A stretch of 64,000 nt of DNA from Natronomonas salinimetallica. Its GTDB lineage: Archaea; Halobacteriota; Halobacteria; Halobacteriales; Haloarculaceae. A model generated the notes under the pieces. That model saw only the letters and a list, made by a program, of their open reading frames with translations, was not told the DNA's origin and did no database searches. The first letter of the stretch is position 1; every line of letters begins with the position of its first letter. The DNA lies in assembly GCF_013839515.1 (NCBI RefSeq), contig NZ_JACDNQ010000007.1, positions 1 to 64,000 of the forward strand, written 5' to 3'. The translations under genes were made by a program, and so were the position numbers. Shown piece by piece: positions 2,083 through 47,590 of this stretch.

Positions 2083-3955
2083 AAAACAGTTCCGCGACCT
2101 CGCGGATCCCGATGTCGCCCGCGAGAAGATCGCGTCGCTCGACCTGACGCCCGATCCGGAGACGGTTCCGCTCCGGCAGGCCCGGGGGCGCGTCCTCGCC
2201 GATCGGCTCGACGCCGACCTCGACGTCCCCGGGTTCGACCGGGCGAGCGTCGATGGCTACGCGCTCAAGGCCGCCGACACGTTCGGCGCGAACGAGGCCG
2301 ACCCGGTAGAGCTGACCCGTATCGGCCAGATCCACGCCGGGGCGGAGCCGGCCGTCGAGGTCGAGAACGGGGAGTGTGTCGAGATATCGACGGGTGCCGT
2401 CCTCCCCCCTGGCGCGGACGCGGTCGTGATGGTCGAGCGGACCGACGCCGGCGACTCCGGGGACACCGTTCTCGTCCGGACCTCGCTCGCTCCGGGCGAT
2501 CGCGTCATGTTCGCCGGTGCGGACATCGCCGCGGGCGAGCGCGCTCTCGGCCCCGGAACCGTCGTTACGGCCAGGGAGGTCGGGCTGCTGTCGGCGATCG
2601 GCGTCGACGAGGTCCCGGTCCGGGGCGTCCCCACCGTCGGTATCGTCTCGACGGGCGACGAACTCGTCCGTCCCGGCCAGCCACTCGACAGCGACGCCGG
2701 CCAGATCTACGACGTCAACAGTTACACGACGGCGACCGCCGTCGAGGAGGCGGGCGGCGAGGCGAAGCTGTACCCCCACGCGGGCGACGACTACGGGGCG
2801 ATGGAGTCCGCACTCCGGACCGCCGCCGAGGAGTGCGATCTCGTCCTCTCGTCGGGATCGACCTCCGCCTCGGCCGTCGACGTCATCTACCGCGTCGTCG
2901 AGGAGACGGGCGAACTCCTGTTGCACGGCGTCGCGGTCAAACCCGGCAAGCCGATGCTCGTCGGCGAGTTGGCCGGCAGCGCCTACGTCGGCTTGCCGGG
3001 CTATCCCGTCTCCGCGCTGACGATCTTTCGGGCGTTCGTCGCCCCGGCGATCCGACGGGCCGCGGGGCGGCCGGAGCCCGAGACGGCGACGGTCGAGGGC
3101 CGAATGGCGATCCGGGAGCGCTACAGCGAGGGGCGACTCCGGTACATGCCCGCCGGGATGGTCACCGACGGCGACGGCGAGACGCTCGTCTATCCTGTCG
3201 ACAAGGGCAGCGGCGCGACGACGAGCCTCGTCGAGGCCGACGGGATCGTCTCGGTACCGCCCGACGTCGAGTACCTGGACGAGGGCGAACCCGTCGAGGT
3301 CACGCTGTTTTCGGGCGACGTGCGTCCACCGACGCTCTTCGGTGCCGGCGAGGACGATCCGGCGCTCTCGCGGCTGCTCGACCGCGTCGAACGACCCCGC
3401 TACCTCGCGGTCGGGAGCCGACAGGGCCGGCGTAGACTCCGGAACGGCCTCACGGACGTCGCTGTCGTGACCGGCGACGAGGGTCCGAGCGGCGTCGAGT
3501 TGGGCGGCTGGTCACGCGAGTGGGGCCTCGTCGTCCCGGCCGGAAACCCCGGTGACGTCGACGGGCTGTCGGCGCTCGTCGACGACGACGTCCGGTTTGT
3601 AAACCGAACGGCCGACTCGGGGCTGCGGTCGACGCTTTCGGACGCCCTCGACGAGCTCGCCGCCGAGCGGGGCGTCGACCGCCGCGAGCTGACCGATGCC
3701 ATCGACGGCTTCGAGCTCGCGGTTCGAGCCCACGAATCGCCCGCTCGAAAGGTACTCGGCAGCGACGCCGGTGCGGGACTCGGGCTCCGGGCCACCGCCG
3801 AGTCCCTCGGGATCGGCTTTGTCCCCTGTGGCACCGAACGCGTCAGTGTGGTCGGGGACGCCGATCGAGTCGACAAGCCCGGCGTCAGACGGCTCGAAGC
3901 CGCCATCGACGAAGGGGCGGACGTCTTCGATCGGCTCGCGGGCTATCGGGGCTGA
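2075..3955 (+). CDS. MoeA paralogue 2 fused to a periplasmic-binding-protein-like domain
   Basis: A 626-residue protein. Residues 1 to about 400 form a second MoeA module (ASVDGYAL near 60, STGDEL near 192, LPGYPVSA near 306). About 200 C-terminal residues resemble the PBP-like/LysR-substrate-type domain often appended to archaeal MoeA. The MPT-site motif differs from the first copy: SSGSTSAS replaces TTGGSSVG, and VDGYA replaces MDGWA. The start ATG overlaps the upstream stop (ATGGATAG). Pairs like this may split molybdate and tungstate insertion or form a heteromer, with the extra domain possibly binding the oxyanion; that is inference. Confidence 0.88.
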   Translation: MDRKQFRDLADPDVAREKIASLDLTPDPETVPLRQARGRVLADRLDADLDVPGFDRASVDGYALKAADTFGANEADPVELTRIGQIHAGAEPAVEVENGECVEISTGAVLPPGADAVVMVERTDAGDSGDTVLVRTSLAPGDRVMFAGADIAAGERALGPGTVVTAREVGLLSAIGVDEVPVRGVPTVGIVSTGDELVRPGQPLDSDAGQIYDVNSYTTATAVEEAGGEAKLYPHAGDDYGAMESALRTAAEECDLVLSSGSTSASAVDVIYRVVEETGELLLHGVAVKPGKPMLVGELAGSAYVGLPGYPVSALTIFRAFVAPAIRRAAGRPEPETATVEGRMAIRERYSEGRLRYMPAGMVTDGDGETLVYPVDKGSGATTSLVEADGIVSVPPDVEYLDEGEPVEVTLFSGDVRPPTLFGAGEDDPALSRLLDRVERPRYLAVGSRQGRRRLRNGLTDVAVVTGDEGPSGVELGGWSREWGLVVPAGNPGDVDGLSALVDDDVRFVNRTADSGLRSTLSDALDELAAERGVDRRELTDAIDGFELAVRAHESPARKVLGSDAGAGLGLRATAESLGIGFVPCGTERVSVVGDADRVDKPGVRRLEAAIDEGADVFDRLAGYRG

Positions 3956-4081: not shown

Positions 4082-4810
4082 ATGGTATCGCTGTCGGAAC
4101 TGGACATCGAGGTGTCGGACGTAGACGCGGTGACCGACCGTCGCGAGGAGGTGCTCGCGGCGATCAGAGACCACGCGGGACGGATCGCGTACAACGTCGC
4201 GAGCGTCGAGGGGGGCGACTACGGCCGGCGGTCGTTTTCGACGGACCGCGGCGAGTGGACGGTCAAATACGAGGCCGGCGAGTTGGAGTTCCTGTTGTAC
4301 GAACCGCGCGGCGGTGGCGAGACGTACGTCGTCTCGACGCAGTCGCCGGCGGACCCGGAAGCGCTCTCGCGTGCGCTCACCGACTACGAGGCGTTCGTCG
4401 CCGCCTACAACGATTACGTCGCCTCGGTCGATGGATTCCTCGACGGCGTCGACGATGGGTTCCCCACGGTCGGGTCGGCCGAGTCGGTGGTCGTCGAACG
4501 CGAGCGCATCGTCGGCCGGATCGAGGCGTGCTGTGGGCGGATGGCCGGCGAACTCCACCGCTATGAGGCCACCGAGTACGGGACGTTCACCGCTCGCGTC
4601 GATGGGACCCGCTGGGAGCTCAAACGCGAACTCGACGGCGTATCGTATCTGCGGGTCGGGGGCTCCGGCGGCGTGTATCTCCTCTCGCAGTACGGCCCGC
4701 CGGCCGCCAGCGACGTCCGGGAGTACGCACCCCGGTTCCCCGGGTTCGTCGAGGCGTACAACGACCACGTCGCGGAACTGGAACTCGATCTCGACCGTAT
4801 CGAGCCCTGA
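4082..4810 (+). CDS. uncharacterised haloarchaeal protein with two tandem homologous halves
   Basis: A 242-residue cytosolic protein of unknown function. The two halves are alignable. Residues about 20-120 end in FVAAYNDYVASVDGFLDGV and residues about 139-240 end in FVEAYNDHVAELELDLDRI, and each contains an RREEVL/RERIVG helix, a W-x-(V/L)-K strand and a Y-V-V-S/Y-L-L-S strand. This indicates an internal gene duplication. There is no signal peptide, metal motif or membrane segment. A TATA-like element is not obvious; the ATG at 4082 gives the natural start. It stands alone between moeA2 and hsp20. Confidence 0.7.
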   Translation: MVSLSELDIEVSDVDAVTDRREEVLAAIRDHAGRIAYNVASVEGGDYGRRSFSTDRGEWTVKYEAGELEFLLYEPRGGGETYVVSTQSPADPEALSRALTDYEAFVAAYNDYVASVDGFLDGVDDGFPTVGSAESVVVERERIVGRIEACCGRMAGELHRYEATEYGTFTARVDGTRWELKRELDGVSYLRVGGSGGVYLLSQYGPPAASDVREYAPRFPGFVEAYNDHVAELELDLDRIEP

Positions 4811-13881: not shown

Positions 13882-14078
13882 GCGAGGCCTCGAGAGACCG
13901 AACGGGGAGTATTGCGACCCGTGAGACAGGCGAGGCCGAGTGAGCGAGGCCTCGAGAGACCGAACGGGGAGTATTGCGACCCGTGAGACAGGCGAGGCCG
14001 AGTGAGCGAGGCCTCGAGAGACCGAACGGGGAGTATTGCGACCCGTGAGACAGGCGAGGCCGAGTGAGCGAGGCCTCG
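13861..14078 (+). repeat. 62-base tandem repeat, 3.5 copies, starting inside a gene's last codons
   Basis: Units start at 13861, 13923, 13985 and 14047; the last is cut after 32 bases. Three complete units are identical by eye. Each holds an inverted repeat (CGAGGCC, 10-base loop, GGCCTCG). The first unit supplies the ETGEAE-stop end of the sulfurtransferase, and the last runs to within 50 bases of the ferritin-like gene. The hairpins could act as stacked transcription terminators. Confidence 0.95.
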
Positions 14079-14123
14079 TCGAGGACCATCGCATACAAGC
14101 CGACGCCCGCAGTACAGACGATC

Positions 14124-14750
14124 ATGAATTCAGACGAGTTCACCGATACCGTCCGCACCGAGAACGAGACCGCCCTCTCGCGGCTTGGGTCCTCGAAGTC
14201 ACTGTACGCCGAAACCGGCGGCGAGATGACCCCCGACGACGTACTCACCGCCGCCGCCACGGCGGAGCACCACGCCGCCGAGACCTACGCGGCGTGGGCC
14301 GACGCCGAGGACGGGGACGTCGCCGACGCGTTCGCGGCGACCGAACGCGAGGAGCGATCCCACTACGCGACGGTCGCCGGCGAGCTAGACGATCACGAGC
14401 CGGGAACGGTCCCCGCGATCCAGGCGTACCTCCGGGGGCTGGAGGGGACGGCGGCCCGTCTCGGCGGGTTCGTCGGCCGGACGATCGCCGCGGAGAAATC
14501 GAAGACCCAGATCACGGGCTTTTTCGTTGGCGACGCGGATCCCCAGACCGCGAGGCTGTTCCGCGAAATGGGTGCGGACCTCGACGCGCAGATGGAGCGG
14601 GCCGAGGCGCTGCTCGCGGCCGAGTGCGGCGACGACGAGGAGCGGTGGGAGACGGCCCTGGAGGCGGCACACGGCGCGATCGAGGCGGCCTACGAGGCGT
14701 ACACCGAGTCGCTCGAATCGATGGGCGTCAACCCCAAGCCGGTCTGTTGA
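14124..14750 (+). CDS. ferritin-like (rubrerythrin-type) protein
   Basis: A 208-residue all-helical protein resembling the haloarchaeal rubrerythrin-like family, with AEHHAAETYAAW near residue 49 and AATEREERSHYATV near residue 72 as candidate diiron ligand helices. No rubredoxin Cys pairs are present; the only cysteines are one in ECGD and the C-terminal residue. Family members handle peroxide or store iron, though some lack metal. The ATG at 14124 avoids the repeat-derived GTG at 14064. Its TGA stop forms the edge of a 110-base dispersed element. Confidence 0.7.
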   Translation: MNSDEFTDTVRTENETALSRLGSSKSLYAETGGEMTPDDVLTAAATAEHHAAETYAAWADAEDGDVADAFAATEREERSHYATVAGELDDHEPGTVPAIQAYLRGLEGTAARLGGFVGRTIAAEKSKTQITGFFVGDADPQTARLFREMGADLDAQMERAEALLAAECGDDEERWETALEAAHGAIEAAYEAYTESLESMGVNPKPVC

Positions 14751-14859
14751 TACTGGTGGACGAAATCAAATGAAACCGACTCACGAGTGATCCGCCGTTC
14801 GCTCCGTCGAACGGTGTGATCCTCGTGCGTCGTGTGTACATTCTTTTGTCCGTCAGTAT
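14750..14859 (+). repeat. 110-base dispersed element, copy 1 (ATACTG...CAGTAT ends, hairpin core)
   Basis: Begins on the final A of the ferritin-like gene's TGA stop and ends in CAGTAT. The copy at 47291-47400 differs at two of 110 positions. The ends are imperfect inverted repeats (12 of 15 match). The core at 14782-14827 folds into a near-perfect hairpin (CACGAG...GATC...GCCGTTCG / CGAACGGT...GATC...CTCGTG), followed by a T-rich ATTCTTTTGT. A small MITE, a 3' UTR structure or a terminator are all possible readings. Confidence 0.88.
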
Positions 14860-14903
14860 GAGCGGGGGCTCCGATTCGGCCCGCAGGGAGGTGGAACCAC
14901 GCG

Positions 14904-15020
14904 GCGCATCCACGTTCCCGCCCCGCACGGCGTATCCACGTTCCCGCCCCGCACGGCACATCCACGTTCCCGCCCCGCACGGCGCATCCACGTTCCCGCC
15001 CCGCACGGCACATCCACGTT
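14904..15020 (+). repeat. 26-base tandem repeat, 4.5 copies, upstream of the quinone reductase
   Basis: Units begin at 14904, 14930, 14956, 14982 and 15008 (GCRYATCCACGTTCCCGCCC...). Substitutions are confined to the second to fourth bases (GCGC, GCGT, GCAC). The final unit runs into CACGTTTATGTCC, so the array ends at the probable promoter of the quinone reductase gene. Confidence 0.93.
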
Positions 15021-47138: not shown

Positions 47139-47291
47139 ATGCCACGGTACTGCCTCGAGTGTGACGATCGCCTCGCACGCCGACTCGAAGCGCTCGCGAC
47201 GAAATACGGGCTGACCGAGGAGGAAGTCATCACGCAGCTCGTCGAAGTCGGCATCGAGGAGGTCGACGGGAAGGCCGCCCGCCGATACTGA
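47139..47291 (+). CDS. 50-residue CxxC microprotein with helical tail
   Basis: Short frame from ATG 47139 to TGA 47291: M-P-R-Y-C-L-E-C-D-D near the start, then a helix-turn-helix-like stretch (LARRLEALATKYGLTEEEVI, then TQLVEVGIEE). One Cys pair is too few for a complete zinc finger, but a dimer could share metal. A TTTATG box at about 47109 precedes it. Its stop is the edge of the second copy of the 110-base element. Coding is supported by charge pattern and start context. Confidence 0.65.
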   Translation: MPRYCLECDDRLARRLEALATKYGLTEEEVITQLVEVGIEEVDGKAARRY

Positions 47292-47400
47292 TACTGGTGG
47301 ACGAAATCAAATGAAACCGACTCACGAGTGATCCGCCGTTCGCTCCGTCGAACGGCGTGATCCTCGTGCGTCGTGTGTACATTCTTTTGTTCGTCAGTAT
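47291..47400 (+). repeat. 110-base dispersed element, copy 2
   Basis: Begins at the last base of the microprotein's TGA stop (CTGATACTGG) and ends CAGTAT at 47400. Matches copy 1 (14750-14859) except for C instead of T in the hairpin and T instead of C near the right end. The C restores a G-C pair where copy 1 has a G-U wobble, so the stem is maintained in both. Confidence 0.88.
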
Positions 47401-47500
47401 GAGTACGCTCGTCTCGGAGCGCCACGCGCCCTCAACGGGGGTGGCGCTCGGCGGGACACCGCGGGCGTACTCATACTGCCGGACGTACGTTCGTGTACGT
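47395..47500 (+). repeat. palindromic element joined to copy 2, plus a second hairpin
   Basis: CAGTATGAGTACGC (47395-47408) is the exact complement of GCGTACTCATACTG (47465-47478); inside, GAGCGCCAC (47417-47425) pairs with GTGGCGCTC (47441-47449). Directly after, GGACGTAC and GTACGTCC (47479-47500) form another hairpin. The element shares its CAGTAT with element copy 2. The gap 47292-47590 holds nothing else. Confidence 0.82.
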
Positions 47501-47590
47501 CCGACTCGGTACATGTCCAAACCGCCGGTCGAACGTGCGTGTCGACCGCCCCGCGAATAAACGGGTCGGTGGCGTCCCGAACGCCCCCGG

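Follow-up and report, generated by a model that had tools for sequence, protein, structure and literature searches.

A 108-bp palindromic repeat of a haloarchaeal genome as a very probable MITE, probably mobilised by an IS630-type transposase, with an excess of insertions on stop codons

We are highly confident that two near-identical palindromic repeats in a haloarchaeal genome are copies of a non-autonomous MITE, one of a haloarchaea-wide group (TACTGNYGGAC ends, nearly always 107-109 bp) probably mobilised in trans by a subgroup of IS630 (DDE_3) elements. The repeat is dispersed, carries terminal inverted repeats, is flanked by duplicated TNA triplets, lies in a palindromic target and has precise empty sites; every structural feature of a MITE that we tested was present. 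As mobile DNA it is of an ordinary kind, but two of its traits are unusual: a length that is nearly fixed across the class and an excess of insertions on stop codons.

Results

Two copies in the window

The window analysed here comprises bases 1-64000 (64,000 nucleotides) of contig 28 of a 2.78-Mb, 30-contig genome. The original prediction, of two near-identical 110-base copies, was accurate: positions 14750-14859 and 47291-47400 differ by exactly two mismatches, T at 14815 against C at 47356 and C at 14850 against T at 47391. It had also described one of these as a G-C to G·U change that preserves the stem. Indeed, both are of this kind: they fall in stem pairs 44-65 and 9-100 and each faces a G, so the plus-strand pair is kept through wobble. 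Each copy folds as one hairpin over the entire element, with energies of -58.3 and -57.3 kcal/mol and z-scores of -7.9 and -8.4 against dinucleotide shuffles. While the 110-base repeat is real, the element proper is 108 bp, and the outer A and T belong to flanking TGA duplications.

The first copy, on the plus strand as are all features of this paragraph, occupies 14751-14858, with left end TACTGGTGGACGAA and right end (read inward) TACTGACGGACAAA, between TGA duplications at 14748-14750 and 14859-14861. The left TGA is the in-frame stop of the upstream gene, and 233 open codons end there. This gene, hit by the insertion at its stop codon, spans 14064-14750 as a 228-amino-acid frame from a GTG at 14064; our gene model places its start at 14124 instead. 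The second copy (47292-47399) lies between TGA duplications at 47289-47291 and 47400-47402, the left of which is the stop of a short, weakly scored frame of 50 amino acids (47139-47291). Further downstream, a truncated member of a 107-bp family (family B; the window copies are family A) spans 47474-47557; it has the left end TACTGCCGGAC, lacks the right end, and agrees with family B at 77 of its 84 first bases. Just 3' of the first copy, a tandem repeat of ~28-30 bp (CATCCACGTTCCCGCCCCGCACGG...) fills 14904-15018, ahead of the next gene at ~15052. On the minus strand, 43327-43392 matches the Rfam S15-Halobacteria ribosomal protein leader at 83.7 bits.

Copies, ends and target duplications in the genome

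The recent spread that had been proposed from two copies is evident genome-wide, with ~70 near-identical scattered copies, target-site duplications and empty sites. Gathering copies region by region, we extracted 67 near-complete members of family A, and the genome holds at least that many; they are 88-100% identical to the consensus, most at least 97%. A search with the end pattern gave 82+82 matches, as against 0 for the reversed control. Full-length copies have terminal inverted repeats TACTG(G/A)(T/C)GGAC(G/A)AA at both ends, with scattered single substitutions, and at 108 bp the multi-copy element has no room for a transposase gene. Identical TNA triplets flank 58 of the 63 full-length copies (TGA 32, TCA 12, TTA 9, TAA 5); the other five have TA/TA flanks (three copies) or unlike TNA triplets (two). 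The rebuilt unfilled target is the palindrome GACTNAGTC, clearest in the congener G121, which we take to be probably Natronomonas moolapensis. Besides family A, this genome has two further 107-bp families, B and C.

Several other repeats accompany these elements. Another short repeat, ~87 bp long and with ends TATAGTAGA, is present in many copies (L062, for example at 4372-4440, L074, L085, L092, L102 and others), and the TA/TA-flanked family A copies (L066, L085, L102) lie at or inside it. At the start of contig C3 (L069, bases 70-190), a 23-bp unit corresponding to the family A left end (TGATACTGGTGGACGAAATCAAA) is repeated five times in tandem. An IS with ends GGCTCTGTTGAATC/GGCTGTGTTGAATC, which we take to be IS6-like, lies within copies of family A, flanked by a duplication of 8 bp, AATGAAAC, and coincides with contig ends at L089 (end of C12), L078 (end of C7) and L093 (start of C17).

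Empty sites

Nested insertions provide the empty sites. At L064, where family A lies within family C, removal of A and one TCA restores an intact 107-bp C sequence; at L316, where family C lies within family B, removal likewise leaves 107 bp. Two further comparisons, one with an unrelated 87-bp repeat that received an insertion (L074) and one with the orthologous site of G121 (L086/L153), agree with precise insertion but for one base of the triplet. There the unfilled relatives read TCG or CGA against TCA or TGA when filled, and L316 similarly shows TTG against TTA, so that in three of the four comparisons a single base separates the unfilled relative from TNA. As TNA triplets are otherwise few or absent in the host repeats, a mutation would have created the usable target prior to insertion, and we attribute the mismatches, a small loose end, to such preceding mutations. 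Conversion of TCG or CGA to TCA or TGA by the insertion itself was rejected, since the TCA of L064 is unchanged and the host repeats offer few or no TNA sites.

A group of elements across Halobacteria

G121 carries ~42 copies, which are more diverged, many with the same flanks, and another genome (G120) has one distant copy. A covariance model of family A, run against 391 genomes of the class, matched only this genome and G121. The TACTGNYGGAC end pattern with TNA flanks occurs in 45 of those 391 genomes, with a reversed-pattern control near zero; thus the wider group has ends and size in common, not the core, and indeed cores differ from family to family. In public genomes, the two-ended pattern occurs in >105 stretches, and among the matches listed all but one are from Halobacteria (Natrialba, Natronococcus, Natronorubrum, Natronolimnohabitans, Natrinema, Halorientalis and several MAGs). 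Viral contigs contained no match to the two-ended pattern. When lengths of 100-114 bp were allowed, 98 of the 109 extracted elements measured 107, 108 or 109 bp, and all 70 with identical flank triplets had TNA. Literature searches outside ISfinder and the subscription journals returned no published description of a TACTG-end group.

Relatives that share these ends and the TNA flanks but differ in size were seen at ~160 bp and ~40 bp (L042, 99-259; L296, 2108-2267; L182, 1504-1543), and two genomes, G330 and G423, also have forms of 178-188 bp. In G121 (L150, ~3795-3822), a solo 28-bp left end, the remainder deleted, abuts the stop codon of a minus-strand gene.

A candidate mobiliser

G121 contains a 1070-bp IS630-family element in three copies (L355-L357) with ends TACTGAGGGCTAAAAA and TACTCACGGACATAAG and duplications of TTA, TCA and TCA. 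Elements of this type in G116 and Natronococcus sp. A-GB7 have TGA duplications, as does a 1250-bp relative in G423. The 1070-bp subgroup, seen in Natronomonas and Natrialbaceae, has its own ends (TACTCACGGACATAA / TACTG-CGGCT-type). Its transposase spans two overlapping frames and matches NCBIfam IS630 (NF033545) and Pfam DDE_3; the second half scores over the NCBIfam cut-off and the first half slightly under it.

At its right end, family A agrees with the G121 IS in 16 of 20 bases, a match that none of 20,000 random 20-mers equalled, and the related MITE in L042 agrees with it at 19 of 20. At its left end, the match to the IS ends is weak (11/20), and the IS shares no internal sequence with the MITE. 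By similarity and matching flanks, this IS630-type subgroup is the best candidate for a mobiliser acting in trans, and a likely one. A search for paired ends that could mark an autonomous partner, over loci of this genome and Natrialbaceae, gave a single real case, L281. We detected no DDE_3 (IS630-type) transposase in this genome, while G121 has such genes; one could be hidden here if a repeat contig was collapsed or is missing. Many of the best-scoring DDE_3 proteins were set aside as members of other IS630 subgroups, whose ends differ. A DDE_Tnp_1 (IS4/IS5) mobiliser was rejected as well, since none of these transposases in this genome or G121 has TACTG ends.

The textbook target duplication of IS630 is TA. 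G121 also contains 1067-bp IS630-type elements (L360-L363) with similar ends but TA duplications. Because the duplications of family A are TNA rather than TA, and both kinds coexist in G121, we speak of an IS630-type subgroup and do not call family A a typical IS630 member. The side-by-side TNA- and TA-duplicating elements of G121 make a natural pair for a study of duplication length.

Insertions on stop codons

The frame upstream of each window copy ends at the left TGA duplication, and over all sets 55 of 155 insertions have a duplicated triplet that is also the stop codon of a predicted gene. We computed rates per TNA site on sequences from which the elements had been taken out, with genes predicted by our own simple coding-potential model, not by curated annotation. 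Stop codons received 55 insertions in 868 TNA sites (rate 0.0634), the 1-60 nt 3' of stops 22 in 1429 (0.0154) and other intergenic DNA 63 in 7193 (0.009); 15 insertions lay inside predicted genes. The fourfold difference between stops and nearby sites gives a Fisher p of 1.3e-9 for all sets pooled, a value that is optimistic, as are those by set, because kin copies were counted separately. By set, p was 0.22 (not significant) in this genome, 0.001 in G121 and 2e-7 in the public set. An IS630 copy at L414 is also placed in this way, its TGA closing a 417-codon reading frame.

The GACTNAGTC consensus accounts for the excess only in part: weighting sites by the target consensus, the expected fractions were 0.105, 0.28 and 0.13 in the three sets against 14/58, 13/27 and 29/70 observed. 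The excess suggests some targeting as well. Tentatively, the IS630 subgroup and its fixed-length MITEs may actively target stop codons through a TNA cut within GACTNAGTC, which reads TGA or TAA on one strand, perhaps aided by a terminating ribosome or transcription complex. If so, each insertion would restore the stop and spare the gene.

Purifying selection alone, acting on a MITE with random targets, is also a possible but unsecured explanation of the excess: insertions in promoters and genes would be lost and those on stops would survive. The few copies inside predicted genes and the regeneration of the stop upon insertion agree with this. However, sites 1-60 nt downstream should be about equally harmless, yet they are hit fourfold less often (a difference not significant in this genome alone), and the excess remains after target-consensus weighting.

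Relation to the SMR-A repeats of Haloquadratum

We considered whether the element is itself a member of the SMR-A small mobile repeats, and find this improbable. The SMR-A elements of Haloquadratum walsbyi (HqIRS42, 43 and 55) are ~110 bp, have prominent inverted repeats, reach up to tens of copies and target IS605-type palindromes; they are reported to make no target duplication and their mobilisation was termed "enigmatic" (PMC3119063). Size, inverted repeats, copy number and palindromic targets are alike. In contrast to this published description, 58 of 63 copies of the present element show a clear TNA duplication, and its sites are mostly intergenic or at stop codons.

An RNA hairpin or a DNA palindrome

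The least likely reading, one we consider quite improbable, is a functional RNA hairpin (a 3' UTR element, terminator or mRNA stabiliser) selected on the plus strand and placed after stops to work there. Its plus-strand fold is highly stable (z about -8), and in this genome 41 of 63 elements have a left gene that reads towards them. Distinct changes at paired sites in this genome preserve the plus-strand pair alone 13 times and the minus-strand pair alone 4 times. Some two-sided changes also occur (31 cells in 6 pairs), which copying from arm to arm within a palindrome can yield as well.

Selection for a plus-strand RNA would make plus-strand G·U changes outnumber minus-strand ones. We placed single-base changes in Watson-Crick pairs on a tree of 88 copies drawn from two species: 48 kept the plus-strand pair through wobble and 35 the minus-strand pair (p = 0.19), and the copies of G121 considered by themselves gave 30:28. 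The strong selection on RNA structure that had been suggested from the window copies is therefore not upheld, and the idea that strand-specific selection acts on an RNA gene or UTR element was rejected for lack of a significant asymmetry. Changes that break the stem, named beforehand as evidence against an RNA function, are common, with 59 of 107 events breaking the plus-strand pair. Additionally, 27 unrelated family representatives showed no per-element strand skew in G·U versus C·A mismatches, and no Rfam family matched the element in the window or the loci of related families. In G121 the stop codon is on the same strand as the element in 7 cases and on the opposite strand in 8, and related families have other cores with weaker folds, such as -38 to -42 kcal/mol for family C. 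The element is probably not a conserved RNA gene.

In some copies the core is flipped relative to the ends (L062 and L082 in this genome; L156, L157, L159 and L160 in G121), which is consistent with exchange between palindrome arms.

Discussion

The MITE reading, in which we place high confidence, carries a proposed mechanism. An IS630-family (DDE_3) transposase encoded by a ~1070-bp IS would act in trans on the MITE ends (TACTGACGGACAAAA), and insertion, preferably at GACTNAGTC, duplicates the TNA triplet. The full-length hairpin may stem from palindromic DNA maintained by copying or repair between its arms, rather than from a selected RNA. Where insertion falls on a stop codon, it copies the stop and leaves the upstream protein whole; stop codons are therefore at least a harmless niche.

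An apparent RNA element thus becomes a recent burst of a mobile group present across much of Halobacteria, with a plausible transposase. For annotators, hairpins of the form TGATACTG...CAGTATGA that lie 3' of genes are to be read as insertions. The result may also be relevant to how the ~110-bp mobile repeats of Haloquadratum move, a process described as "enigmatic". By its published description, SMR-A is the nearest haloarchaeal analogue in size, shape and copy number.

REP/BIME/REPIN elements are likewise hairpin-forming intergenic palindromes, often found 3' of genes. They have no target duplication and depend on a Y1 RAYT transposase, whereas here there is a direct TNA duplication and a DDE_3 IS with matching ends. 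Correia/NEMIS-type elements are MITEs mobilised in trans by IS630/Tc1-mariner-type transposases. The element resembles MITEs of this type in being short and non-coding, with inverted repeats matching IS630, a strong hairpin and many copies; it differs in its 3-bp TNA duplication in place of TA, its nearly fixed length of 107-109 bp across many genera and its excess on stop codons. Lastly, the 1070-bp IS630-family elements of G121, G116 and Natronococcus sp. A-GB7 share with it the TACT(G/C)-CGG(A/C) end motif and the TNA duplication, but code for a two-frame transposase and have an internal sequence unlike that of the MITE.
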